This document shows positions 6,032 to 23,100 of a stretch of 24,582 nucleotides of DNA, piece after piece. The notes under the pieces were generated by a model that worked only from the letters and a program-made list of their open reading frames with translations, was not told the DNA's origin and made no database searches. Numbering within the stretch: position 1 is the first letter of the stretch; each line of letters begins with the position of its first letter. The position numbers and the translations under genes are program-made. The DNA comes from Spirogloea muscicola (Eukaryota > Streptophyta > Zygnematophyceae > Spirogloeales > Spirogloeaceae), in NCBI GenBank assembly GCA_009602725.1, contig WELB01000185.1, positions 68,443 through 93,024 of the forward strand, written 5' to 3'.

Positions 6032-7106
6032 TTAGTAATTGCAGATACCAAACTGGCAGGTGGGCACTGGGTGCGTCGCGTCAGGCACACACTTGACACC
6101 GCACTTGCCACAGTTGTTCGCGTCCACAAGCAGGTTCGAGCAGGTGCCGTTGCAGCAGGTCAGGCCAAAGCCGCACACGTTGAAGCAGAAGCCGCAGTTG
6201 GTGAGCGATGTGGACGTGTCCACGCATGACTTGCTGCGACACGCACAGAGAGGGGGGAGGCGTAAGGTGCATGGAATGATGAGCTAGAATAGAAGCGTAA
6301 GGAGAGGAGGACAGGAAAGATAGGGAGGACGAAGAAGACAGGACACAGCTGAACGAAGTCCAGACACCAGTGCTTTCTACAAGCAAATAATAGCTAATAG
6401 CTAGTCAAGACACAAGCTTGAACTTGTCCCAAGTTCATATCCTAAGCTCAGCGGCGATGCAAAGCAGTTCCATTTTTAGTGTGAGGAAGGGTGAGCACTT
6501 GGTTGATGAGAACAAAAAGGTCACCTGCAGCAAGTCGGGGAGAAGACGGGGTTGTATCGGGGATCGAGGCAGATGGACGCGTTCTTGTTGCAGTTCTTGT
6601 GGCCAAACTTGTTGGGGTGGTGGCCCGTGCCTGCAGCAAGCAAGGCAAAATGTGAGCTCCGGCTGGCAGACCACGCAAGTGGAAAAGCCAGTCCAGCCCA
6701 AGACTGGACCCTCACTGGCAGAAGACATGACATGACAGGAGTGGCAGGAGACAGCGGGCATTCTGGTAAGGCCATCTGAGATGAAGCAACTCTAGACATA
6801 CGTACGTTTGAATCTGAGCAGAAAGGCAGCAGCTGTCGCGTCGCCAAGCGAGGCGAGACGACTCAGTGGGAAAAGGAAGGGGCCAGGAGAGAGGGGAGGG
6901 GGGGGGGAGGGGGCACCTGGCGGGTGGTGCCCGACGCCGGGAGGGTGGTGGCCGGCTATGACGCCGAAGGCGTTGAAGCCGTGCATGCCCTTGGTGGGAT
7001 CGCCGGCGTTGAAGGTCAGCTTGGGCTTCTTGGCGTCGACCGAGGCAGCGGCGGCGAGCGCGAGCACGAGCACAGCCGCGAGCAGGAACCTCGGCGAGGC
7101 GGCCAT
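6032..7106 (-). CDS. STIG1-like secreted cysteine-rich protein (3 exons, complete)
   Basis: Exons on the minus strand: 7106-6917, 6630-6525, 6233-6032. All introns are GT-AG, phases agree, and the product is 165 residues. It starts with a signal peptide (MAASPRFLLAAVLVLALAAA), so it should be secreted. A Gly-His-Pro-rich linker with three GHHP units (HHPPGVGHHPPGTGHHPNK) follows, split by intron 1. The C-terminal half has the STIG1 cysteine pattern: NCGFCFNVCGFGLTCC, NGTCSNLL, NNCGKCGVKC, then a final C-NY. In flowering plants STIG1 proteins act in stigma exudate and pollen tube growth; the wider family is apoplastic with mostly unknown roles, so a stigma function should not be read into this one. 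Most members I recall are intronless and near 140 residues; this one has two introns and the His-Pro linker. ATG7106 is chosen because the signal peptide begins there. Confidence 0.88.
6868..6914 (+). other. G-rich tract in intron 1 of the STIG1-like gene
   Basis: Several runs of three to eleven G on the plus strand, ending two bases from the intron 1 donor of the minus-strand STIG1-like gene. Such a tract could form a G-quadruplex in the DNA template strand. This is a sequence property, not a demonstrated element. Confidence 0.6.
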
Positions 7107-8420: not shown

Positions 8421-8610
8421 CACGCCTTGCACCTGCGTGCCGGCCGTGCTCAGAGGAAGTGCTCGCCCAAAGCCAGCCCAAAAATAATGGACAATGTCCA
8501 AAGCCAAAAGGAAGGTTCTAGCTGCAGCCGGCTTTCGTCAGGAGGATACTTTCCCGGCAGCTAGTCTGTCGGATTTGAGGCTCCTCACTCGTGACTGCTG
8601 AGTGATCCAT
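8421..8610 (+). repeat. Tail-exon repeat copy 1, interrupted by a 70-bp hairpin module
   Basis: CACCTGCGTGCCGGCCGTGC encodes HLRAGRA up to 8450. The frame resumes at 8521 with AAAGFRQEDTFPAAS, then SLSDLRLLTRDC and TGA at 8599-8601. This aligns to the other copies (for example RAGRA-AAAS...FPAAS, and SLSDLRLLSRGY). Between the halves, 8451-8520 is extra DNA containing AAAGCCAGCCCAAAAA, a remnant of the hairpin repeat in reverse orientation. A related string (GGACAACGTCCAAAGAGCC) occurs near 17790. I read this as insertion of the hairpin module into a tail-exon copy. Confidence 0.6.
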
Positions 8611-8700
8611 CCTCCCCTTGTTCTGACAGCATCTTCAGGCCCCTTTGTAGCTGCTAAACGCTTGTAGGCAGGCCCCTACGAACCTTTGCCAATTCTTTTT

Positions 8701-9054
8701 GGGCTGGCTTTTCGCAGCCCTTGCTCCCATTGGGAGTGCCACTTCTTCTTTCCGGCTTCTAGCTGTTCGGATGCGCCGCTCCTCGCTCGTGGTCACCAAA
8801 GTACTTCGTCCCACCGGGCAAGCTTTGCGACACGCGCTTTTGGCCCCTTCGGTTCTTGTCAGGCTGGCTGTTCACAGCCCTTGCCCCTTCTGGGAGAGCA
8901 ACTTCTTCCCGAGCTTTCCGGAATTTGACCTTGTGAAATTGTTTGTCGGGCTGGCTGCTCACAGCCCGGGCCACCCCTTTTGTACCTGGCCATTTGGCCT
9001 ACATTTCTTTCTAATACACGATCTTTCTCCTTTCCGGGCTGGCCTTTCCCAGCC
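8701..9054 (+). repeat. Cluster of GGGCTG...CAGCCC hairpin repeats
   Basis: Four forward copies: 8701-8720, 8861-8880, 8948-8967 and 9036-9054. Each has a six-base inverted repeat GGGCTG/CAGCCC (first base varies) around an eight-base loop beginning GCT or GCC. Shared flanks (CTTGCCCC-TTCTGGGAGAGC, or TTGTACCTGGCCATTTGGCC) recur elsewhere, so the hairpin is the most conserved part of a longer module of roughly 60-90 bases. No long reading frame is supported here. Confidence 0.75.
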
Positions 9055-9128
9055 ACCAGTCAATCTGGCCGCGCTTTCTTTCCGGGCAAGCTCAGAGACG
9101 GCGCTTTTGGACCCCTAGTGCCTTTGAC

Positions 9129-9233
9129 CAGAAAGCTGGGCAAGCTCTAGTTGGTGGCAGAAGGGCTTCGTTTCTGGTATCTAGTATTCATGCATCGATC
9201 GGTGACCTTTATGTTTTGACCCATAGTTACTGA
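9129..9233 (+). repeat. Tail-exon repeat copy 2
   Basis: An open 34-codon tail ending in TGA at 9231-9233: QKAGQALVGGRRASFL, then ASIGDLYVLTHSY-stop. It is followed by the conserved non-coding flank GTAGGTTATGTGCTTGCCTT...TTGGCCATTTGGCC. It aligns codon by codon with copies 3 and 5. Confidence 0.7.
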
Positions 9234-9419
9234 GCGGGTCAATCTGCTGTAGGTTATGTGCTTGCCTTTGTACTTGGCCATTTGGCCTACGGTAATTTCA
9301 AATACACGAAATTTTCCTTCAGGAGAAGAACGACGCTTCCAGGAGAAAGTGCTCGCCCATTGAGGAGAGGGCGGTGGCTGGGAGAGGCCAGCCCAGTGCG
9401 GACCTTGTCAATTCCTTTC

Positions 9420-9439
9420 GGGCTGGCTGTGCACAGCCC
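9420..9439 (+). repeat. Hairpin repeat copy
   Basis: GGGCTGGCTGTGCACAGCCC: stem GGGCTG/CAGCCC, with a palindromic TGTGCACA centre in this copy. It sits about 190 bases downstream of tail-exon copy 2, in the same relative place as the copy at 9834 after tail-exon copy 3. Confidence 0.75.
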
Positions 9440-9516
9440 GACGTGCAGATGTGTTTCTGGCTGAGATGGGCTTGCCAGCTGCATATCTGTCGTTCTTGCG
9501 ACGACAAGTTTTGGCC

Positions 9517-9654
9517 TGCTTGCAGCGTGCTCAGGCTGATACTTTGCACCAGAAAGCTGGGCGAGCTCTAGTTGGTGGCAGAAGGGCGCCGTATCTGTCA
9601 TCTAGTATTCAGGCATCGGCTAGCGACCTTTATGTTTTGACCCGTGGTTACTGA
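9517..9654 (+). repeat. Tail-exon repeat copy 3
   Basis: Open frame CLQRAQADTLHQKAGRALVG, then GRRAPYLSSSIQ and ASASDLYVLTRGY-stop (TGA at 9652-9654). The upstream part aligns with the minus-strand copy at 18096-18254 (SLQHSQALAMHQRAGRALA), so homology extends to about 45 codons. It is followed by the same GTGCTTGCCTTTGTACTTGG flank as copies 2 and 5. Confidence 0.72.
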
Positions 9655-9833
9655 GCGGGTCAATCTGCAGTAGGTCATTAGATGTGCTTGCCTTTGTACT
9701 TGGCCAATATGGCCTTCATTTGATTCGAAGACACGAAATTTTCTTTGAGAGAGCCACTTCTCGGTCAGCCCTTTGGATGAGCTTGATTTTTAGACACTTC
9801 TGGCCCCTTCCAAACTTCGTTCATTCTTTCTCT

Positions 9834-9914
9834 GGGCCGGCCAATGACAGCCATTGCTCTCTACTGGCAGAGTCTTTCGTCCTGTCCGTTACGTTGGGCT
9901 GGCCTCTCACAGCC
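9834..9914 (+). repeat. Two adjacent hairpin repeat copies
   Basis: GGGCCGG...GACAGCC at 9834-9852 and GGGCTGGCCTCTCACAGCC at 9896-9914. Both have the same flank on the right (CATTGCTCT-CTACTGGCAGAG, and CATCGCCTTGCATTGGAAGAG). Confidence 0.7.
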
Positions 9915-10040
9915 ACATCGCCTTGCATTGGAAGAGCTGTTTGTTTGAAGAAAGTATAAGCAAGAAAGAAGTAAGAAAGACGGGAAGAAGCAGGTCTTCC
10001 AGAAGAAGCAGCTCTTCCCGAAGCTGCCAGAAGGGGCCAA

Positions 10041-10217
10041 GGGCTGTGAAAGGCCAGCACTCATAAGTTGTGAACAACGAAGATGCAGCAATTCCAAGGG
10101 AGAGAGAACGCGTGCTGTATGGTGCGCATGAAGTGAGAGGAAGGCCAAAGTATGCCAATCAGATTATTAGCGAAAGCTTGAGGACAGAAGGGGAGGCGAG
10201 GGCTGAAAAGCCAGCCC
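10041..10217 (-). repeat. Reverse-oriented hairpin repeat copies
   Basis: GGGCTGTGAAAGGCCAGC at 10041-10058 and GGGCTGAAAAGCCAGCCC at 10200-10217 read as the reverse complement of the family seen at 8701-9914. They are preceded by the reverse of its flank (AGAAGGGGCCAA and AGAAGGGGAGGCGA). Confidence 0.7.
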
Positions 10218-10255
10218 ACATGAGATCGAACAAGGTCTCGAGGAGCGAGCGATAT

Positions 10256-10475
10256 AGAAGTGGGTCCTCTGGCTCTGGCCAGGGGACCCACTTCCAGGAG
10301 CCTAGCGTCTCTGACCTGAGGCTGCTTAGCAGGGGTTACTGAGTGATCCGTCGCTGCTTTGTTTCTTCATGTGCTTGTTTTTCTTAGCGCTTCCCCTGGC
10401 CCCCTTCTCGTCCTTCGTTATTCTTTTTTGGGCTGGCTTTTCCAGCTCCTATTCTCGATGAGCGAGCACTTTCTT
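10256..10475 (+). repeat. Composite repeat: tail-exon copy 4 plus hairpin module
   Basis: Coding tail GTHFQEPSVSDLRLLSRGY with TGA at 10340-10342. The flank CTGCTTTGTTTCTT...TTCTTAGCGCTTCCCCTGGC and CCCCCTTCTCG follow, then hairpin GGGCTGGCTTTTCCAGCTCC (10430-10449) and GATGAGCGAGCACTTTCTTC. The whole block of about 220 bases reappears in inverted orientation at 16942-17170, at roughly 85-90 percent identity by eye. Confidence 0.78.
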
Positions 10476-10516
10476 CTTCTTGATATAGAGAGAAGTGGCT
10501 CTCCCGAAGGGGGCAA

Positions 10517-10812
10517 GGGCTGTGAGAAGCCAGCCCGAAAAGAACTGACATGGTTCGAAGGGGCCTAACTACAGAAGGAACCAAAAGCTCTATCTCAAAA
10601 CTGGTGTTCAGTAGGGCTTGCACAGTCTCCGCCCCCTCTGGAAGAAATTTCGTGTATTTGAATGAACTGGAAGAGCTCACTATCAAAAGGGGCTGTGCAA
10701 GGCCGGCCCATGACAATGAAGCTCAAAGAGCACAAAACTTTCAAGAGAGAGTTGGCTGTAAACGATATCACACCACAAATTGGAAGTGATTTTGAAAAGG
10801 GCCGACGGCTGT
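10517..10812 (-). repeat. Reverse hairpin copies and flanks
   Basis: GGGCTGTGAGAAGCCAGCCC at 10517-10536, GGGCTGTGCAAGGCCGGCCC at 10690-10709, and a weak partial (GACGGCTGTGAAGG) near 10804. ATTTCGTGTATTTGAAT near 10648 is the reverse complement of the ACACGAAAT string in the 9129-9960 units, so this stretch is a broken reverse unit of the same family. Confidence 0.65.
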
Positions 10813-10869
10813 GAAGGACACCTCTGGAATCCGGTGACGAAGTCCAATGGGTTCCGGACAGTGCCAAGT

Positions 10870-12146
10870 CATATTGCTATACGAGTGGCTAGCTAGCTAC
10901 TACGAGTGATTCGAGTCGTCAAGCCCAACAAGAATCGACAAGGGCTGAAGTGGCCAAAAGCGCAAACAGCTGCACAAGTTGTGGATATCTCCCCTAGCGC
11001 CGGCACCTTCACTGCAAGGGTAGGAGAACATTCTGCTTGGATGCTGAGATGAAGCCGAGTGAGTCTACTAGCTTTGCAAGATCAACAATAGCAATAGTCA
11101 GCATTGGGGTTACACAAAGCAAACGCCTTAAACAATATATAAAGAGAAGAAGAAGAAGAAGCTGGTCCGGAGGTCCAAGCTTCCAAGCTCTTTCTTCACT
11201 TCGTAAAATCTCATTGTTCTGCAGTATTGTTTCTTTACGAGTGTACTATGTGGCTCGAGTCAACCTCCCTGCTCCTCATTCGCATCGCCTGCCTTCTCTC
11301 TCTGCCTCACGGGGGCATGGCTCCGGAAGGCCAGCCTACATTTAAGGGACATCGGTTGTGACAAGTACACTAAAATAATGAAGTACTGATATAATGAAGA
11401 CAAACGTCGTCTCCTTCCACGTTGCGCAACCTGCAAGTAGACGGCCGGTTCAATTCCCGAATGAGGTGTACTGTGTTATTACTAGAGTGAGTGCTAATAG
11501 CACGTCGATTTGCACGTTAGCCCACTACCCCGACTGCCAAGCTCAACCCTTTTGCTATGCAGTTTGTGGACGCATTGAAGAATGGGACCTGCGATTTGCA
11601 TAACAAAGAAACCAGCATAGGTCAACAGATGACGTTGTGCACCAAGTCTAAGACTTAATTAGTACGAGAAGATTAAGCAGACAAAGGAGATCGACGGCAT
11701 CTTGCCTAAAGCACATCTTCGTCACATATCACATGATGATCAGAGCTCACCTCCAAGCCATGAATGCTTTGATCATTCTGCATTTGCTGTAGGTTGTTGA
11801 AAGTCAGATGACCGAACCGGTATTGCCACACTATGTGACAAAGATAATATGTGTTAACCATCAACGAGTTGTTAAGACAAGAACTCTCGGTAAAACAAAC
11901 TCTACATGGATGCAATACTATCACCATCAAACACTGCTATGGCAATCATCTTGCGATTTAGACAAGAAAGAAGCCAATCCCATAGCTTTTCGACTAATCG
12001 TAATTTTTGTCGGGACTACATTTGAATTGTCGAGCTGCAATAGAAGGAGCTCAATTTAAGAACGTGGCTGAGAAAGGCCAGGCCAAAAAGAAAGGACAAG
12101 GTTTAAAGAGCCGAAAGGCGCCTAAACCACACAGCTATGCACGAGA
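10870..12146. other. Stretch without a supported gene
   Basis: Mixed composition, AT-rich in 11350-12050. Open frames here are short, have no recognisable domain and overlap on both strands. A GAA-rich microsatellite lies near 11146-11162, and GAAAGGCCAGGCCAAAAAG at about 12073 is a weak hairpin-module remnant. GGTTCAATTCCC at 11448 looks like a tRNA B box, but no tRNA folds around it. Confidence 0.5.
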
Positions 12147-12272
12147 CTACAGCGGAGGGGAGCTTAGTAACCCCGAGTTAGTAGCAGCAAGTTGGGAGTA
12201 ACTTGCAGCTGGAAAAGAGGCACCCCGACGAGACGCAGAGGCAGCAGCTGTAGCGCGGCCTGCCCGCAAGTG
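12147..12272 (-). repeat. Tail-exon repeat copy, 3' end diverged
   Basis: Reads HLRAGRATAAASASRRGASF then PAAS on the minus strand, aligning with copy 1 (HLRAGRA, then AAAGFRQEDTFPAAS) without the 70-base insertion that copy 1 carries. After this point the SDL-LTRGY ending is not preserved; the frame continues to a different stop. Confidence 0.55.
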
Positions 12273-12715
12273 TGCACGGCGTGTGGCAAGGAGTTGATTG
12301 AGACAGATTTGCAATGAGTTTAGGTACATAGAAGATATCATGGAGTGTGCAATATTTAACTCCTTTGCTTCATGAATATGTCTTCGTTCCTTTTCCAAGT
12401 ATCTCAGAGAGGGACTATTTCCTTCTGCAATTGACCGTTTCCTAAACACGTCTTGAAAGAATAATAAAACGTTGTGTGTGGATACACATGTTTTTTGCTG
12501 TTCCTGTGTCCACACCAGGAGTAGTCCAATGTAGCTTGCATAACAATGTCATCAAAGTACGACCAAACTGAGAATAGTTTCTTCTGTGTTCGGAGGTGGT
12601 TGTTGTAGTTGTGCTCCTTCCGTTTGACAGCAGAAACGAATCAGTGTTCTGTTCACGGAGTATGTTATGCTGGTTGTACAAGCTTTACAGGAAGATGAAT
12701 AGCTTGACATCTTTT

Positions 12716-12890
12716 CACCAGAAAGCTGGGCGCAGAGTTCTGGTTGGTGGCAGAAGGGATTTGTATTTACCATCTGGTATACAGGCATCGATGAGCGAGC
12801 TTCATGATTTCGCCCGTGGCTACTGAGCGGAAGGTGATGTATACGCCTTCAGGTGTACTTGCCTTTGTAATTGGTCATATGGCTTTTTGT
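12716..12890 (+). repeat. Tail-exon repeat copy 5 with its 3' flank
   Basis: HQKAGRRVLVGGRRDLYLPS, then GIQASMSELHDFARGY and TGA at 12824-12826. The downstream flank GTACTTGCCTTTGTAATTGGTCATATGGC (12858-12886) matches copies 2 and 3. The copy is isolated: no hairpin follows at the expected distance. Confidence 0.72.
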
Positions 12891-13563
12891 TTTTTTCACA
12901 TATACGCAACATTCCTTTTAGCATTCCTTTTCACAACAAAAAGTACTAGATTTCTCCCATTTGTTTCCGAGCTTAGCAACATCTTAATGTGGAACAAGTA
13001 AGCTTCTGATAAAAAGGCATGTAAACACCTGAACCCTAAAACATCTGAACTTTCAAAAACAAGCATGAGAGTACTGCCTATATCATATAGACCTGGTACT
13101 GAGTCATATACCAACACATTCAGATTCTCTAAGTTGTTCATCTATCTATCTATCTGTAGACTACCCATTGTTTTTGAAGGGTTCTTCTTGACCATGGACC
13201 ACAGTTCATCATTACTGAACTGAGTTGACATTACATGAATATGTAGATATTAAAAAAGTGAGCCAGTACAAACTTACTCAGCAAACTCAAAATAAGTCTA
13301 AAACCTCACACAATTAAGCCCGACAAATAGAAGAACATCATTTTGGAGCCAAGAAAATGAATCTGCGCCTCGCAACCGGCGGGGGCCTATGCAATGGTAG
13401 AATTGTCATACTGACTGTGAATGTTGTGGGGACAAGGACCCACGCTAGTAAGTGGCCACTTGTCCCTGAGCACCAGAACCTCTCAACTAGCCATGCCGTG
13501 CAAAATCAGTTACAATATTCTACATGCTGCACATGGTATCCCTACATCCATGATAATCTACAT
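12891..13563. other. Intergenic and LEA 3' flank; no gene seen
   Basis: AT-rich sequence downstream of the minus-strand LEA gene, expected to hold its 3' untranslated region. A short TCTA repeat lies near 13141-13156. Open frames on either strand show no recognisable protein. Confidence 0.5.
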
Positions 13564-15041
13564 TCACTGAGTGGACCTCTTCACCTCGTCCACCTTATGA
13601 CTGGCCTGATTCTTGGTATCATGTGCAGCACCGGAAGCCTGGTTGTATGTGTCGTGCGCCGCGCCCTTGGCCTGGTTATATGTGTCGTGCGCCGCGCCCT
13701 TGGCATCGCCAGCTGCGTGCTGGGCCTGGTCACCGGCCTCCTGGGTCTTCCCAGCTACAGTCTCGTAGGCGCTGTTGACTGCGCCGGCAGCCTGGTCATA
13801 AGCCTGCCCGAGAACGCCCTTTGTTTGCTCGCCCGTCTCACCAGCTCTCTGCAAGATTGGCATTAGGCATGGATCAGCAAAATGCAGTTCATTACTTTGA
13901 GAATCTAAGTGATTGTTGGCACTAACATTTCAAAGATCTGACCTTGCTAATAAGCACAAAGCAAACTTCTGCAGCACCAGCACCAAGCAGCAGAAGCTAT
14001 TCGCCATTGTCCAAAGTATAACAAACAATTAATCAACTCCGTAGCATTTCAATTGTTGAATCGTAGCATTTCAATCGTTGGATGCCAGCCACAGCCAAAC
14101 ACCAGAAACGTTGCTGCAAAAGTAGAAGCACAGCAGAAAGCTCACCTGCTGGGCCTCTTGCGACTTCCCAGCGACAGTCTCATACGCGCTCTGGGCGGTC
14201 TGGGTGACCTTGTCGTAAGCGGCTGAGACATAATCCCTGGCCTTCTCACCAGCCTGAGCAGCTGTGTTCTGGGCTTGCTCAGCAGTCTCAGATGCCGACT
14301 GCTTGGTCTTGTCATAGGCCTCGCCAGCCTGCTGCTTGGTCTTGTCATAGGCCTTGCCAGCCTGCTGCTTGGTCCGATCGTATGACTCGCCTACCTGCTG
14401 CTTGGTCTTGTCGTAGGTCTCGCCAGCCTGCTGCTTGGTCTTGTCATACGACTCACCGACCTGCTGCTTGGTCTTGTCATAAGACTCGCCAGCAGCCTGC
14501 TTGGTCTTGTCGTAGGCCTCGCCAGCCTGCTGCTTGGTTTTGTCGTAGGCCTCGCCAGTCTGCTGCTTGGTCTTGTCGTAGGTCTCGCCAGCCTGATCCT
14601 TGGTCTTGTCATAAGAGTGCTGAGCGCTGGCCTTGGTCTTGTCAGCGGTATCTTGAGCGTGGCCCTTGGTCTGGCTGTACCTGCAATAATCAAATTAAAA
14701 ACAAAAGCTTACACCCATGAATTTGACCTTTGGTTGCTGAGAGATACAGGTTTGCTAGCTCAAATTGCATGATCGAGACACTCAAGACGGCTAGCAGAGG
14801 GGTTTACAGCCATCCAGAGCAGCTTCTCAACAATCGTGCGTCCATTGTGCTTAAGGCACACACAGATGGTGCGGTCCGTGCTACAGACGCATCGAGCAGG
14901 CCTCTTATTGCCCCAACCCGCCCACGACCAGCCAGACGAACTCCACCAACGACAGGAGGGACGCGCTGGCGGCAGGAGCAATGGCAGACGGGCCAAGGCG
15001 CGAGAAAGGGAGAAATCAGAGAAGCGTGCTCACTGCGACAT
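13564..15041 (-). CDS. Late embryogenesis abundant protein, group 3 / LEA_4 type (3 exons, complete)
   Basis: Minus-strand exons: 15041-15034 (eight bases, ATGTCGCA), 14680-14146, 13848-13564. Phases agree and give 275 residues starting MSQYSQTKGHAQDTADKTKA. Exon 2 encodes ten near-identical 11-residue units of the type YDKTKQQAGEA, the amphipathic repeat of LEA_4 proteins. They continue as QSASETAEQAQNTAAQAGEK and SAYETVAGKSQEAQQ, with further KGAAHDTYNQA units in exon 3 and the end KVDEVKRSTQ. There is no signal peptide or membrane segment, and the protein is highly hydrophilic with no Cys or Trp. Family members are disordered when wet and fold into helices on drying, protecting proteins and membranes during desiccation. 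Three G-boxes about 200 bases upstream fit abscisic acid control. The large coding exon contains no usable ATG in frame, so an ATG-to-stop scan misses it. The gene is divergent from VTI1. Confidence 0.9.
13645..13710 (-). repeat. 33-bp direct repeat in LEA exon 3
   Basis: The string TATGTGTCGTGCGCCGCGCC followed by CTTGGC recurs in adjacent 33-base units on the plus strand, encoding KGAAHDTYNQA on the minus strand. The near-perfect nucleotide identity shows recent unit duplication or conversion. Confidence 0.85.
14290..14620 (-). repeat. Tandem 33-bp coding repeat (YDKTK units) in LEA exon 2
   Basis: Ten head-to-tail units of 33 bases, each seen on the plus strand as CTGCTGCTTGGTCTTGTC plus a variable TAxGxCTCGCC part. 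Variation is concentrated at the Ala/Val/Thr and Ala/Ser/Thr positions (QQAGEA, QQVGES, QQTGEA, QAAGES). One unit has YDR instead of YDK. Confidence 0.92.
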
Positions 15042-15233
15042 GGCGGCGGCTGTGTCTGCGGTTGCGGCTGCTTCGGCGGAAGCGGCGGCGCTGCCGAAGG
15101 CGGAGAAGGCGGCGAAGCGGCGGCGGCGAAGCGGCGGCGGCGGGGGGCGAGGAGGGGCTGCGAGAATGGAGGGCTGCGCATCTGACGAGTACGGGCACCT
15201 GGGGGCAGGACCACCAGCGCCACGGCAGACAGC

Positions 15234-15332
15234 CACGTGGACGCCACGTGCCACGTGGCATGCGCTCAGGAGGCTGAGCCGCTCCGGGGCTGCCACGCGG
15301 CGGCCGGAGGGGCTTGGTGCGGCTGACGTGGC
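15234..15332. promoter_or_regulatory. Triple G-box (ABRE) cluster plus GACGTGGC
   Basis: CACGTG at 15234-15239, 15245-15250 and 15252-15257, all within 24 bases, followed by GACGTGGC at 15325-15332. In plants, clustered ACGTGGC/CACGTG motifs are bound by ABF/AREB-type bZIP factors, and more than one copy is normally needed for abscisic acid response. The cluster sits 193-218 bases upstream of the LEA start codon. That is a fitting place for a desiccation gene, though it could also serve VTI1. Confidence 0.65.
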
Positions 15333-15771
15333 GCAGGCGCGCCGCCCCGCGGTGGTCCCGAGGGATGGAAGGGGGATCTTACATCAACTGATGGTAGCAT
15401 AATCTATTGAATCTATTGAATGGCGAATTGAGGCACGGTCAGCTGATCGCGGAGTGGCAGCCGTCGTGGCGGCCCTCGTTTCCAACGAGGATGGCCGTCT
15501 CGGCAGACGGCGTATGCTCCTGTAGCCCAAATCTCGCACCAGCTTGTCCGGTAACATCAATGTTCCAGATCTACAGACCATACAATAATACACCAGAAAC
15601 TTTGAAAAGCAGGTTGGCTCGTCGTTCCAACGTTGGCCCCCGATACGGAGCTGACGGCGTGACGCGCTCCGTCTTCGTCAGCGGGATGACGGGCCCCGCG
15701 CCGTCCTGTGGCCCGGCAACTTCCTGGACACCTGCAGCTGCGCGTTAGGGTTAGGGCTCGGCGCAGCGGCT

Positions 15772-15814
<43 letters not shown>
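15772..15814 (+). repeat. (GCG)n trinucleotide repeat in the VTI1 5' leader
   Basis: About fourteen GCG units, ending 14 bases before the VTI1 ATG at 15828. It would code for polyglycine in the VTI1 frame, but no conserved N-terminal sequence supports an upstream start, so I treat it as leader. Confidence 0.85.
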
Positions 15815-15827
15815 GATCCGCGGCGCG

Positions 15828-16862
15828 ATGAGCGGCGCGGAGGGCGGCGCGGGCGCGGTGATGGAGGCGTACGAGCGGCAGTACCGCGAGGTGTCGGCGG
15901 CACTGGCGTCGGTGCAGGCCAGCGCCGCCGACCGCCGCGCGAGCCTCGAGGAGGCCGAGTCCCTGGTGCGCGGGCCCCGCCTTCCGCTCGCGGCGCAGAT
16001 AAGGTTTAGGGTTTGGAATTGAGGTCTAGGGTTCGATTCTAGGGGCTGTGCCGTGCGTCCTCATGGCGGCGGCGGCGGCGGCTGCGGACGGCGGGGGCGG
16101 GGCTGGTGACCAGCGCGCGCGGCTGCTGAGCGCCACGGAGCGGCTGACGGCGACGGGCGAGCGCATCCGCGACGGCAAGCGCACGCTGCTGGAGACGGAG
16201 GAGCTCGGCGTGTCCATCCTCCAGGACCTGCACCAGCAGCGCCAGACGCTGCTGCACGCCCGGGACTCGGTGAGCCCCATTGCCGCCGCCCGGGCTTGCC
16301 CCTAGCGCAGTCGTCAACGCTGGTTGATTGAGCTTCTGTGAGTCTTTGAGTCACTGTAAAGTGCTTGCAATAGTTGGGTGTCGTAATGATCACAACTGTC
16401 AATGCTGGCTTGTTGAGCTTCTTTGAGTCTGCGAATCATAGACTGTTTGTGACAAGCGTGTGTCTTATGAGTCACTACCAATGGGTATGCAATCATTTCT
16501 CTTGTGACAATGACATGACATAAGGCCTAATGGTAGTAATATAAATTGGCGGGTGCAATCAACTAACTAGTCGCAAGAGAGGCCGGAGTATAGTTGGCAG
16601 TGCCGCCGCCCATGCCGCCTGTGTCTCTTCCGCAGCGAGCGTCTGCCCCTTCACAGAAATCGTTGAGGCTCACTCTCACTCGATCTCGCCAATGCTGCTG
16701 CAGTTGCACGGCGTGGATGACAACATCGGCCGGAGTCGGCAGATCCTCAACGGCATGGCGCGCCGCATGAACCGCAACAAGTGGGTCATGGGCCTCATCA
16801 TCTTCATTCTCATTGCGGCGATTGTGCTGATTGTGTACGTGCGCCTGCGAGGCCACCGATAG
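15828..16862 (+). CDS. VTI1-type Qb-SNARE, middle of N-terminal domain missing
   Basis: Vesicle SNARE of the Golgi/endosome/vacuole route. Exon 1 (15828-15965) encodes helix Ha: AVMEAYERQYREVSAALASV to EEAESL. The exon ending at 16269 encodes the start of the SNARE motif (QRARLLSATERLTATGERIR, TLLETEELGVSILQDLHQQR). The last exon (16704-16862) encodes LHGVDDNIGRSRQILNGMAR, NRNKW and the C-terminal anchor (WVMGLIIFILIAAIVLIVYV), then RLRGHR and TAG. The central Gln expected of a Qb-SNARE lies in LHQQRQ. About 45-60 residues that homologues have between helix Ha and the SNARE motif are absent; only 64-97 bases of non-coding-looking, telomere-like DNA lie there. A model with a 64-base intron 15966-16029 keeps frame and gives 178 residues, but the joining sequence (GSILGAVPCVLM plus polyalanine) is unlike the family. 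Gene identity is firm; the central structure is uncertain, and an assembly deletion is possible. Confidence 0.78.
16003..16045 (+). repeat. Degenerate telomere-like motifs at the VTI1 gap
   Basis: GGTTTAGGGTTTGG, GGTCTAGGGTTCG and TTCTAGGGG resemble TTTAGGG plant telomere units. They occupy the place where the missing Habc-domain exons of VTI1 would be expected. Confidence 0.6.
16312..16430 (+). repeat. Imperfect 34-bp direct repeat in VTI1 intron
   Basis: CGTCAACGCTGGTTGATTGA-GCTTCTGTGAGTCT at 16312-16345 recurs as TGTCAATGCTGGCTTGTTGA-GCTTCTTTGAGTCT at 16397-16430. Both lie in the intron between the SNARE-motif exon and the membrane-anchor exon. Confidence 0.75.
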
Positions 16863-16941
16863 GCCTCGACTGGCTACAGCCCTGGCCTAATCACTGGCAT
16901 CGGCTCATAAAGGCCCGACCACTCCCTCTCCCTTCCATTTC

Positions 16942-17245
16942 AGAAGAAAGGGCTCGCCCATTGAGGATAGGGGCTGGACAAGCCAGCCCAAAAAAGAATG
17001 AACAAAGAACGAGAAGGGGGCCAGAGGAAGCCAGAGGAAGCGCTAAGAAACCAAAGCACAAAAGAAAGAAAGCAGCTACAAATTACTCAGTAACCCCTGC
17101 TAAGCAGCCGCAAATCAGAGAGGCTAGGGTCCTGGAAGTGGGTCCCCTGGACAGAGCCAGAGGCAGCAGCGAGGGCTCTCCCGGCACGAAGGTGCAGCGC
17201 ACGGGCCATGGACCTCTGCAGCGAGACGGCCAAGCGCATGCGATA
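16942..17245 (-). repeat. Composite repeat: tail-exon copy 6 plus hairpin, inverted relative to 10256-10475
   Basis: On the minus strand the frame reads YRMRLAVSLQRSMARALHLR, then AGRALAAASGSVQGTHFQ and DPSLSDLRLLSRGY-stop (TGA at 17089-17087). Next come TTCTTAGCGCTTCC, CCCCCTTCTCG, hairpin GGGCTGGCTTGTCCAGCCCC (16989-16970) and the reverse complement of AAAGGGCTCGCCCATTGAGG. The 17170-16942 part matches 10256-10475 in order and in most bases. This copy extends the tail-exon homology upstream to about 52 codons. Confidence 0.78.
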
Positions 17246-17759
17246 CACTTGCGCCAGCATTTCTCTCTCCTCATGGAGGAAGCCTGTAAAATTATACACA
17301 ACCATGGGATACTGCAGTACTTTTTAGTTTGATGTCTGATAGCAAATATGGGTTGGGAATCTGATCTACTTAGTGTCTGTCACTTGTCATCGCTTCACCG
17401 ACTTGCATGACTCAATGCTTTTGCCGGTCATGGTGAGCTTCTTTGAATACTGGTGTATGTTGCCTGACACTGACCTGGAGGCAGTTATGCCTGACAGTGT
17501 AGCCATCTTCACAGCCTTGTCCCTTATAGCCAATGGAGCGATTACGACTGGAGGATGCTCAAAAGCATCATAGAGTACACAGTTTCAGTGAGATGCATTC
17601 TTATGTTTATTATACAAAGCGCCCGAGCAGAGACAAAAGCATTTGCATTCACCATGCCGCGTCAAGAAGGCCGCCTCAAAGTTCTGAGCTTTCTACGCGT
17701 AGTATCATGCAGTCACAATATGATTTCCCACACTATTAGATTTGTGAACATATAGGAGA
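17246..17759. other. Stretch without a supported gene
   Basis: Mixed composition. Open frames on either strand are short and show no recognisable domain. No repeat module recognised elsewhere in the window is seen here. Confidence 0.45.
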
Positions 17760-17930
17760 GGCTGGCCGAGGCCAGCCCAGAAAGAAAGGACAACGTCCAA
17801 AGAGCCAAAACGATGCCGAGAAGGAAAATGGCACAGGCAGACACAAGACGGCGGTAGCATTCTAAGCTGCGGCTGCTCAACAGGGCACATTGCGCTTTCT
17901 TTAGTCTTCTGGGCTGGGCCTCTCACAGCC
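17760..17930. repeat. Hairpin copies in both orientations with a degenerate tail-exon remnant
   Basis: GGCTGGCCGAGGCCAGCC at 17760-17778 is reverse oriented and followed by AGAAAGAAAGGACAACGTCC. GGGCTGGGCCTCTCACAGCC at 17911-17930 is forward. Between them, TCTAAGCTGCGGCTGCTCAA at 17861-17880 encodes SKLRLLNRAH, a decayed match to SDLRLLSRGY in the forward orientation. Confidence 0.55.
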
Positions 17931-18095
17931 ACCCCCCTCTCTATCTCTCATGGCCTCCCCATCTCTAAATACACACGTTTTCCTGCCTCTCCTGGAAGAG
18001 AGAAGGCGCGCGGTGCGCATGAAACTTGTAAGGGAGGTCAATTTTAGCCTTACAAATGTCCTGTTAACTGGGTAATGAGCTGGCTAAAAGGGACA

Positions 18096-18254
18096 CTAAT
18101 ATCCCCGAGTGAGCACATGCATATCTGACAAGCTACACTGAAGAGCCAAACAACCACCACGGAAGCCACTAGCCTGGGCTAATGCACGACCAGCACGCTG
18201 GTGCATCGCGAGTGCCTGGGAGTGCTGCAGACTCAACGATAGCCGCATCCTATA
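18096..18254 (-). repeat. Tail-exon repeat copy 7
   Basis: Minus strand: YRMRLSLSLQHSQALAMHQR, then AGRALAQASGFRGG and SLSDMHVLTRGY with a TAG stop (18098-18096). It matches copy 6 from its first residue (YRMRL-SLQ-S-A-A-H-RAGRALA-ASG). GCATGCTATAG immediately upstream could be a splice acceptor. The ending uses different codons from the other copies (TCA GAT ATG CAT GTG CTC ACT CGG GGA TAT TAG) while keeping the peptide. Confidence 0.7.
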
Positions 18255-18544
18255 GCATGCAACAATGGTTTGCGGGACGCTGAAATGGCCTAAGCTACCT
18301 GCCCGACTACGTCGGCGGGCATCAACATGCAGTGCCAGGCGATGGAGGGAAGACCACTTCGTTCCGTAGCCGCCGTATATGTCCATGGCGCACGGGAATA
18401 AGTGGTCGTCAAGGGGGTGGTCGTTATGGTGGTTCTCCTTCTTGCTCTCTGTAGAAGCGTCTCTTCTTGTGATATTGAGCACCCCGTGGCCACTTCAGTC
18501 ATTTTGTGCTTTCTGGTCCCTTTGAACATTGCTCAGTCTTCTTT

Positions 18545-18563
18545 CTGGGCTGGCCATCCACAG
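18545..18563 (+). repeat. Hairpin repeat copy
   Basis: GGGCTGGCCATCCACAGCC, followed by ATCGCCCTCCACTGGAAGAG. This is the same right flank as the copy at 9896-9914 (ATCGCCTTGCATTGGAAGAG), so the homologous module extends about 20 bases beyond the stem. Confidence 0.75.
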
Positions 18564-18912
18564 CCATCGCCCTCCACTGGAAGAGTCTTCCTTCTTGAAG
18601 CTGACAGTACTGCATGCCAGTGGCTGCTGCGGACAAGCTGACATGGCCGGCGAGTCACAGTTGACGCAGCCACGGCTGTGGCTGTACGTGGGCCCTTGCA
18701 TCGAGGGCACTGTAACATCGCTCCGGTTGGCACCTCAGCGGCACCACTGTGTTCCACCAGTACGCTACCTTCCCGCCCTCCCGGACCTTGTTCATTCCTT
18801 TGTCATCCTTTCATCCATGCTTTTCGGCCCCACTGTATAGTCTCTATAGTCTCTTGCATGGCTGTGTGTATTCTGGCGCCTATTGGCTCTTCAAACCGTG
18901 TCCATTCTTCCT

Positions 18913-19140
18913 GGGCTGGCTATTCACAGTCCCCGCCCCTATTGATAGAGCTCACTTCTGCTTTTATAAGATGGTCTTGTCCAGCCAACGCCTTACTTGA
19001 GAAGAGCTATTTGTCTGTGCCATCGTGCCGCCGGAGCCCTTGGTGGTGACGAGGGGCCACTGAGCAGGCACCCTTACTGTCTCCACGTTTTCCGGCTTCT
19101 TTGGTCAGACCCTGTTTTTTGGGCTGGCTTTTCACAGCCC
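18913..19140 (+). repeat. Two forward hairpin repeat copies
   Basis: GGGCTGGCTATTCACAGTCC at 18913-18932, flanked by CCCGCCCCTATTGATAGAGC, and GGGCTGGCTTTTCACAGCCC at 19121-19140, flanked by TCGCCCCCTTTCTG. The second is the closest to the family consensus. GTAGGTTATG and TATGTGCTTGCCTT near 19157-19190 are the tail-exon 3' flank string without its exon. Confidence 0.75.
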
Positions 19141-19199
19141 TCGCCCCCTTTCTGCTGTAGGTTATGTAGATCTTTATATGTGCTTGCCTTAGAAGACCT

Positions 19200-20118: not shown

Positions 20119-23100
20119 TCAGCAAGTGTGACGGCACTTGCACATGAAGTCAACCTCTGTGATACGCCAGAGCTTGTATTCATGGAAGCGATTAACTTTA
20201 TTTGCCTTACCAATGATCCAATTGTTGTGGATCACCACTGGATTCACACCAGCAGCCTGATGGAAAGAGTACATGCCACTAGTCAGTGAAGCAAATTTCA
20301 CTCTGCCTGGCAGTGCTCCTGAAACATAATCCCTTAGAAAGAAACAACTATTGAGAAATGACCTCCAACACCTTGCTGATGCAAGGCATATATGTCTCCC
20401 TTGATCATACTAACACAGTAAGTGCGCATTTACAAAATTATGGAGTGAAACATAAGGGAAGCCACATGCTTGAAGCACAGCCCGTATTTGAATCAGAATG
20501 TGTCAGATAGCCATGAGGCTAGAGCTCAGGCATCGGGACACCATAAAAATGGAAGGGCTTTGATCATAATCACCTGGGGCTTCTGCTCCAGGAAGAAATC
20601 CTTTCCAGACGGGAAGAGCAGAGTGGAAAGGTTGCGGGGCACAAAAGCGCCGCGCTTGGCCATCTGTCGAATTTCAATGTTAAGGAGCTTCTGCTCGTGC
20701 TCCTCAATATTTGCCTAAAAACAATATATTCCATGTGAGCTGGAGATCTTGACAATGATAACACGCGGCTGAAAGTTTCGGTAGTTGTTGCATAAGTCAA
20801 GGTGTTGTCTCTCTCCTCAAATATCATCACTTGCTTCGAATGCAGATCACTTGACAATGATGTTATACATCCTCTCATTCATGAATGACTCCATAGGCAG
20901 TAGTAGACTGCCTCAGTCAGAGAAGCAAGCTCGGTAAGCTGCAGATGCTTCAAGGCATCAACGTGAATGACATAGACAGGCTAGTGACTTATGACCCAGT
21001 GTTTGTCTGAGGGGGACCTCACCTCAAGGTACCGTGCCTTCTCGGCTGCCGTCTTAAAGGATGCCAGCTTATGAGCTAAGTTGTCCACGAGGTCAACAAA
21101 TTTGCGCGTAACAGTGTGCCACAAGGCCCGCATCCGCTTCGTGTTCCTCATGTACAAAAATCCTCCACACATGTCTCCATTGGGCTCTACCTGCAATAGT
21201 AGGGACTCACGATCTGTAGAAACTTAGCAAGAAGCTGCAACCTCAAAACATCTTTTTGCTGCGATGTTTTGCATACCGTTTACCAAAAGCAGGGCTTCAA
21301 GACCCAGCCAGTTACACTGCCCTGGGTGCCTCAACACTACGGATACGCCAACTACTTTTGCGTGTACTTCTGCCAACCCTTCCACCATAAGACTCCTTCC
21401 CAACTTGATCATCAACGGAGCTCTGCGACCCTGCTGCACCTTTCAGCCATGACTATTATCTCGCACCCTCTCACCAACTTGCACAAGTGCTGGATAGAAG
21501 TGCTACTTGAGTAGGGGCAGCACCTCATGACCTAGCTCAAGTAAGCACGCTCTGGATCCCATTCCAACAAGACCTGCATAACTGGCCTAACGCCCTCCTA
21601 AGCAACTGCACAAAAGCGTGGGTAGACGACGCACCTGGCCATACATGTCGACATTATTATCTGTGAGATGCAGGAAGGGGTTTGACTGCCAAATGGAGTC
21701 GATGTCTGCCAGGAGGACGTGGTAGCCAAAGTCCAGGACGATGCCAATCACTTTGGTACGCTCCAGGATGAGCTGCTGGTACTCCAGTGTCCCATAACTG
21801 AGGCCCTCCTGACGTGTCGCCGACTGGGCGCGGAGATTTCCAAAAGAGGGGGTCAGCTTGTCCTGCGGTCTTAAAACCACTCTCCATCCCTAAACCCTGA
21901 CCTTATCAGAACGGCCCCAAGCCATCAACCACGAGTGAAGTACGGCTGGGGTGGCTGGCTCCTGCGGCTGACTTACTATCCTGCCAAGGTTGCCCCACGT
22001 ACTTTCGATTCCTGTTACACACGTAGGTACGCTCTAGGTGAAACTTGGTCAAAGTCACACCTTGAGGAAGAAGACAGCATGGCCAGCCGCCACGAGGTTG
22101 TTGGCCAGCTGCTCGTCAAACGAGACGATCATGTAGTTGGTGAAGTGCAGCTCGCTGGAGTAGCAGAGCCAGTTAGAAAGCATGTCTTCCATGCCGCCGT
22201 TGGCCGAGATAGCAATGATGGTGTTGTTGATGGCAATTGCCTGGACATAGAGCAGATTGCACAAAGCAAAATTTGCTGGAATTAGCTGTGAGGAGTAGAA
22301 CAAGCGTCTCAACCATACGCCCTCACGCGTCGGCTGATGCAGTATAGCAATAGTGATAAGGACAGCATTGGCTGACAAGCAGGACCAGAGCTACCAGCCA
22401 TTAACTACTATTGTTTCGCACTGCTATCTACTATGCCTGCTGATCGTTTCCAGAAGACTGGGACAGTAAGCTCGCCACACCTGGAGCATGTCCCCGAGCT
22501 CCCGGCGATTGGTAGCCATGATGCCCGGCCGCATGCTCTTGAAGCAGTAGTTATATCGTCGCAGCTGCAAAAGCGGTGGTAGGTCATCCCACGCCTGCTC
22601 CTGCACGACGCCCACTAGCGATACCTCGGGCAAGCCCTCCGCTAGTTGCAATCTCTCCGACGGCGACTCCTGCAGCCATTTAGTGAGGAAGCAAGTTGCT
22701 GCTGACTGGTTTCTAAAGTCGCACAGACAACCAAATAGCAATCTGCAGCACGGCGAGCCAAAGCAGCTGCGCTCTTAGAGTAGCACAATGAGGCGCAGAC
22801 TGTCAATCAGGCTGGCTTAATCTTCTGATTTAAGGGTGTAGCTTGGCTCAGCTCAGCTCACCGCAACCTTGCCTCTGTCCGCGAGCGTGGTGGCAAATGC
22901 GCCACCGTCGGGCAGGTGGGCATAGACGTTGAAGTAGAAATGGGAGTGGAGGAACTCGGCAAAGCGGGACATCCACGTGTCCTGGCACGTCGACGCGTGC
23001 TCGTCCGCCCACAGCATGTCATTGCCCAGCGCCGGGTTGCCGTCCCGGTTTTGCCAGTGTTCCTCGTACCACAGCCGGAAGCTCTTCCAGGGGCCTGGGA

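Follow-up and report, generated by a model that had tools for sequence, protein, structure and literature searches.

Among non-long-terminal-repeat (non-LTR) retrotransposons, a restriction-like endonuclease (RLE) is described for the clades CRE, R2, R4, NeSL and HERO (PMC4640811), and in R2Bm the KPD and KRNKY sites have been mutated (PMC6895275). Utopia, a long interspersed nuclear element (LINE) with a reverse transcriptase (RT), one zinc finger and a C-terminal RLE, targets U2 small nuclear RNA genes and is reported from Amoebozoa, SAR (stramenopiles, alveolates and Rhizaria) and Opisthokonta (PMC4640811), and the Dualen/RandI LINEs of Chlamydomonas and related green algae are reported to carry a PD-(D/E)XK-like nuclease (PMC3636483, PMC8226300). 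Zepp LINEs, which nest in one another (PMC3446292), are grouped with L1 (PMC8226300), and L1 carries an apurinic/apyrimidinic endonuclease (APE) (PMC3636483). Here we report on a window of 24,582 nt from the Spirogloea muscicola genome (contig WELB01000185.1, positions 68,443-93,024, labelled G000:C185:68443-93024; the assembly has 153.1 Mb in 471 contigs) that holds seven copies of a conserved C-terminal peptide. These copies are very probably the 3′ termini of 5′-truncated LINEs encoding an RT, an RLE and a conserved tail; the class is most likely a LINE with an R2-type RLE, read here from the RT to the C-terminal tail. A preliminary description of the window had taken the copies for an amplified terminal exon and recognized no known family. 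The literature as far as it was accessible holds nothing specific to these families and no described family that matches them, but at the level of the kind of element the earlier statement fails.

All seven tail peptides are in frame and end at the stops originally assigned to them, at 8601, 9233, 9654, 10342 and 12826 on the forward strand and 17087 and 18096 on the reverse strand, the stop codon being TGA in six and TAG in one. A tight form of the motif occurs seven times in the window, against a mean of 0.0 over 60 first-order Markov simulations, and is thus not due to chance; under a looser definition, the window and 90 loci of the same genome (L-numbers below) together hold 149 occurrences (135 distinct), against three in the same sequences reversed. 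The tails sort into at least seven groups, families A to G, each with a distinct 3′ untranslated region (UTR), with SDLYVLTRGY/F as the signature of family A and SDLRLLSRGY as that of family B; the seven in the window belong to families A, B, D and G. Two features described as common to the copies are less general than was thought. The upstream motif H-x-(K/R)AGRAL is exact in three (9654, 17087 and 18096), altered in two (DQKAGQAL in copy 9233, HQKAGRRV in copy 12826) and absent from the other two (8601 and 10342), and the common 3′ flank GTGCTTGCCTTTGTACTTGG is exact after two copies only (from 9258 and from 9684); copy 12826 is followed by a diverged form, and the remaining four by different, family-specific flanks. 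What had been observed is therefore partly confirmed.

The nature of the element is apparent from longer genomic copies, in which SDLYVLTRGY is joined upstream, in one frame, through a nuclease-like region to an RT. The RT signatures GDPLSPILFALA and YADD are present in L006, L034, L042 and L051, and a piece of L092, in frame within a 1,267-aa open reading frame (ORF), scores 53.6 bits against Pfam RVT_1 (cut-off 29.6). The top PDB match of this piece is an R2 retrotransposon protein (E = 1.7e-4), with the RTs of a group II intron and L1 ranking close behind, so that the match does not fix the clade. A single open frame of 1,137 aa on contig C48 holds the tail peptide together with two RT-side matches, and one of 613 aa on contig C28 combines the tail with a match to part of the RT-side query (residues 100-195). 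The family B tail lies within open frames of 1,100-1,600 aa in 21 of 150 listed matches. Some further listed frames, of 2,769-7,620 aa, are probably inflated by N runs and were left out. The nuclease-like region lies downstream of the RT in the same frame, and it continues into the tail in one frame in pieces of families A, B and D and, for family G, in the window itself (18099-18494).

When the nuclease-like region was modelled, R2 structures were the top matches in both Foldseek and VIA, with weak TM-scores and Z, and with moderate confidence we predict a PD-(D/E)XK-type fold resembling that of R2, an assignment that is supported but not proven. Profile searches of the region against PDB and Pfam gave nothing meaningful, and a first AlphaFold model of 326 residues was set aside (pLDDT 40.8). 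Between the RT and the nuclease there is a putative CCHC-like motif, CxCG...H...C, in which aligned sequences retain C20 in 8/9, H32 in 9/11 and C36 in 9/9 cases. C-terminal to the nuclease-like region lies the conserved tail, about 65 residues long with SDLxxLTRGY at its end, which is common to at least six families with diverged 3′ UTRs. It might be a distinct functional module, added after the nuclease, that brings the protein to LINE 3′ ends, the elements then inserting within or directly behind the termini of one another and so forming nests, although we consider this doubtful.

Truncated LINE tails of this kind are present in thousands across the genome. The genome holds 1,920 instances of the 20-mer GTGCTTGCCTTTGTACTTGG, 964 forward and 956 in reverse orientation, and none when it is read backwards. 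With a 60-aa C-terminal query, all 150 scored candidates match, out of 11,889 first-look candidates, and with a 203-aa family B query all 150 scored candidates match, out of 20,609; the unscored first-look candidates are a guide to abundance only. No relatives were confirmed in viral contigs among 118 pattern matches. We note that 35 of the 150 listed family B matches have E = 5.9e-112, equal scores and 90 % identity, in frames of 245-1,357 aa, and the spread of this subfamily seems to have been very recent. Separately, two family B copies about 4.6 kb apart stand in mirror, opposite orientation at both G000:C20:1130796-1135995 and G000:C338:9309-14508, with frames of 283 and 1,350 aa, an arrangement that resembles a segmental duplication.

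The borders of the copies point to the manner in which they arose. A set of 68 family A copies has the common 3′ end ACACGAAA, with 5′ alignment starts scattered from 115 to 1923 on a 1,976-nt reference; in seven of these the alignment reaches a locus edge or N run. Five begin at 1468-1473 (L002, L007, L022, L042 and L060), possibly a truncation hot spot or a truncated subfamily. In 20 of the 68 the two junctions have at least 7 nt, and at most 18 nt, in common; among 200 mismatched pairs used for comparison this holds for 9 (p = 1.8e-7). The fixed 3′ end, scattered 5′ ends and junction repeats fit target-primed reverse transcription with an early stop.

There is also a lead that insertions are concentrated near the 3′ ends of other LINEs. 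The family A end ACACGAAA lies 2-14 nt upstream of TTGGGAGAGCCAC, a sequence near the family D 3′ end, at 12 genomic places, where about 0.24 would be expected from 2,995 TTGGGAGAGCCAC sites and 1,920 family A ends. The 5′ flanks of 38 of 64 insertions match a library of LINE 3′ ends, compared with 128 of 300 random points in the same loci, and these matches are in the same orientation in 29 of the 38, as against 63 of the 128 controls (65 opposite; p = 0.005). The 3′ flanks match the library in 45 of 64 insertions and at 131 of 300 random points; here orientation is unbiased, 23 of the 45 being in the same orientation compared with 70 of the 131 controls (p = 0.86). This flank test is rough, since the library holds stretches of the same loci, which produces some self-matches among insertions and controls equally, and may extend past some 3′ ends. 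As the samples are small, the loci rich in LINEs and the library crude, nesting is put forward as a lead.

It had been suggested from synonymous differences among the copies that selection acted on the protein before or during their spread, and selection before the spread is borne out. Changes were counted over 100 codons in 50 of the 68 family A copies, all distinct and aligned from position 200 or earlier on a 535-nt reference. Those private to one copy (102 nonsynonymous, 56 synonymous and 4 stops) agree with a neutral expectation of 0.648, 0.316 and 0.037 respectively, which presumes a transition bias of about 4 (p = 0.45). Changes found in at least three copies, which were likely fixed before the spread, comprise 12 nonsynonymous, 22 synonymous and 1 stop, a synonymous share of 22/35 against the 0.316 expected (p = 1.7e-4), and the two classes of change differ from one another (p = 0.004). 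A tree of 73 tails gives dN/dS of 0.35 for internal branches and 0.53 for terminal ones, but these tails were chosen by peptide pattern and so lean to conservation, and the 50-copy count is preferred. Between the consensuses of families B to G (resting on 4, 5, 3, 1, 2 and 1 copies) pN/pS over the last 35 codons is 0.25-0.58, with weaker values of 0.58-0.94 between family A and the others; these ratios are rough, as synonymous sites between consensuses are near saturation (0.56-0.87). The synonymous variety among the window copies thus goes back mostly to the lineages that transposed, and inserted copies decay freely. Neutral change had been named at the outset as a sign against the earlier reading, as had a lack of linkage to any longer frame, and the outcome is split: the private changes are neutral, but a longer reading frame is indeed found joined to copies of the tail.

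A familiar mechanism would account for these patterns. The element protein would engage the 3′ end of its own RNA, its predicted endonuclease would nick the target DNA, and the nick would then prime reverse transcription, which would begin at the RNA 3′ end and usually halt early, so that most new copies would consist of the ORF tail and 3′ UTR only. Purifying selection would be limited to lineages that still transpose, with truncated copies dead on arrival and decaying neutrally, and several families with related tails and differing 3′ UTRs have spread. Enrichment of insertions near other LINE 3′ ends would help to explain seven tails within 10 kb. The sequences themselves show the linkage in one ORF, the RT, the pattern of truncation, the repeats at the junctions and the pattern of selection, from which the priming mechanism, an active protein and any function of the tail are inferred.

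The earlier proposal was that amplification affected the terminal exon of a host gene (or a processed pseudogene derived from that gene), the peptide being part of some unknown cellular protein. In its favour, the peptide is protein-coding and the shared changes look constrained. The proposal is rejected because the RT is in the same frame as the tail, and we give it practically no chance: the RT and nuclease-like region stand upstream in frame, single open frames contain both RT and peptide, 21 of the 150 listed family B matches have long open frames, and the 68 family A copies, with their scattered starts, have no single common 5′ border. What stands of the terminal-exon claim is that the copies are the 3′-terminal part of a protein-coding gene; the gene, though, is a retrotransposon ORF with an RT, and the pieces are 5′-truncated insertions of it that need no splicing. 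The earlier interpretation is in this sense partly supported.

It is highly improbable that the copies are a short interspersed nuclear element (SINE) or another short non-coding repeat that merely looks coding, even though the window pieces are short with palindromic 3′ ends, five of the family A copies share a start, and non-autonomous partners that borrow a LINE 3′ end may exist. The longer copies are colinear into the ORF, the shared changes favour synonymous sites, no common non-LINE head is seen among the 68 family A copies, the window has no tRNA, and neither the window nor 20 copy-bearing loci contain an Rfam family; folds of the 3′ UTRs were not significant. A retroelement of another type (LTR, Penelope-like, an APE-type LINE such as L1 or Zepp, or a Dualen-like element with both nucleases) is also very improbable. 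Other RTs are common in this genome, with at least 150 scored RVT_1 matches, and nested LINE clusters are described for Zepp in Coccomyxa (PMC3446292). The nuclease-like region, however, resembles the R2 endonuclease in the structure model and has no GIY-YIG match at E <= 1. Of the 10 places in the genome that match the APE model PF03372, none is closer than 5 kb to the listed LINE places, and PF14529 has no match in the genome, the N-terminus of the element, where an APE would be expected, being outside this reading. 5′-truncated LINEs with an RLE therefore remain the explanation that we prefer.

Family pieces make up 2,910 bp of the window by matching to the 3′-end library, all within 8,445-19,190; the best-match percentages that follow are blastn DNA matches to that library. 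On the forward strand the first is a 5′-truncated family D 3′ end (8521-8753, 85.4 %) that ends in SDLRLLTRDC with its stop at 8599-8601 and a palindrome in the 3′ UTR. Two remnants of 3′ UTR only, one of family A (8979-9034, 97.7 %) and one of family E (9028-9090, 100 % over 47 nt), are followed by two family A 3′ ends. That at 9127-9324 (85.3 %) has GDLYVLTHSY, a stop at 9231-9233 and its 3′ UTR. The other (9439-9738), with its 5′ junction at about 9439, stop at 9652-9654 and 3′ UTR end ACACGAAA, reads ...RADVFLAEMGLPAAYLSFL...HQKAGRALVGG...SDLYVLTRGY and is 83 % identical in protein (71 aa) to L041, a copy long enough to include the nuclease-like region. A family B 3′ end (10261-10517, 90.0 %) has SDLRLLSRGY, a stop at 10340-10342 and a 3′ UTR with the GGGCTGGC/GCCAGC palindrome, and its segment 10266-10440 is found at 41 other genomic places with 91-97 % identity. 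A diverged family A 3′ end (12716-12922, 78.2 %) has SELHDFARGY with its stop at 12824-12826. Further along this strand are 3′ UTR remnants of family D (18874-18965, 78.9 %) and of family D followed by family A (19110-19190, 91.7 % and 97.5 %).

On the reverse strand, a family B 3′ end (16925-17258; library match 16925-17191) has HLRAGRALAAASGSVQGTHFQDPSLSDLRLLSRGY with its stop at 17087-17089, and 16946-17258 is 99.4 % identical over 314 nt to L010, whose ORF holds the nuclease-like region. A family G 3′ end (18003-18494, 90.5 %) has SDMHVLTRGY, a TAG stop at 18096-18098 and then the 3′ UTR; its 132-aa frame (18099-18494) comprises the end of the nuclease-like region and the tail and has 62 % identity over 113 aa to L002. 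A family C 3′ end at 12064-12272 (77.8 %) was found to have no intact tail peptide, and there are 3′ UTR remnants of family C at 8445-8515 (97.6 %) and 17747-17853 (76.9 %) and of family D at 10483-10572 (93.9 %). The 3′ ends of families B, C, D and E contain a palindrome of the type GGGCTGGC...GCCAGCC or CAGCC, followed in B, C and D by a TGGG(A/C)GAGC-like stretch, and many small palindromes in the window match these family 3′ ends.

The top RVT_1 loci were also considered as the source of the element and rejected: a local search of family A pieces against 30 of them (L061-L090) gave one match, L086, to which individual inspection was confined and which has a separate LINE tail adjoining another frame. 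The motifs of that frame suggest a Ty3/gypsy-like element. We note that a pol-like frame of L086 (1423-2859, reverse strand) seems to hold a read-through LINE 3′-end palindrome (FILFWAGLSSPYPQWASPFF) with no stop.

Several other genes or parts of genes lie in the window. A SNARE-like gene in pieces (15822-16862, forward) has V-SNARE_C in frame at 16030-16305 (45.7 bits) and, as judged by eye, a hydrophobic stretch near 16790-16840; the reverse-strand family B tail (16925) starts about 60 bp past its stop. The reverse-strand frame at 13564-14694, with 10 in-register copies of a 33-bp (11-aa) tandem repeat over 14205-14679, presumably encodes a late embryogenesis abundant (LEA)-like protein, although its Pfam matches are all below the cut-offs. 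A Stig1 domain (6032-6283, reverse; 56.5 bits, cut-off 24.1), an M20 peptidase piece (1702-1995, forward; 42.6 bits) and a nucleotide-diphospho-sugar transferase piece (21590-21889, reverse; 39.2 bits) complete this group.

With coding-looking repeats explained by a familiar mechanism, the finding is largely ordinary; what remains of interest is how many families exist in parallel, that insertions are enriched close to LINE 3′ ends and that an additional tail is conserved after the nuclease. It also carries a warning for annotation, as the tail peptide stands in open frames at a great many sites, which annotators might take for genes or terminal exons. A genome with several LINE families that have an R2-like nuclease region, at very high copy number, should be useful for asking how such LINEs came to insert widely and why they are enriched at LINE 3′ ends.

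Of the described systems, Utopia is similar in being an RLE-type LINE but differs in its target, as there is no Rfam match in the window or in the 20 element-bearing loci. Dualen/RandI elements likewise have a PD-(D/E)XK-like nuclease region; Dualen, however, has an APE as well, whereas no APE model match is seen at the elements here, the N-terminus of which is outside this reading. Zepp and Zepp-like elements share the nesting of LINE in LINE, but Zepp clusters once per chromosome and is of the APE type, while these elements are dispersed and RLE-like. R2 proper, with its 28S rRNA target, was rejected as a candidate, since 41 matches are spread over 38 contigs and 20 copy-bearing loci lack any Rfam match, rRNA included. 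The overall plan nevertheless follows that of R2-type RLE LINEs, with a central RT, a putative Cys/His motif and then a PD-(D/E)XK-like region for which R2 structures are the best predicted fold matches, and with a D...D...K-x3-Y order that appears comparable to the KPD and KRNKY sites of R2Bm, the matching of K/ARNKY here to KRNKY being our own reading. From these relatives the Spirogloea elements depart in three respects: they are dispersed over thousands of places and not confined to one target gene, several families coexist, and about 74 residues (64 after the model and its last 10) follow the R2-aligned part, compared with about 34 in 8gh6 (aligned as far as residue 1,080 of 1,114).

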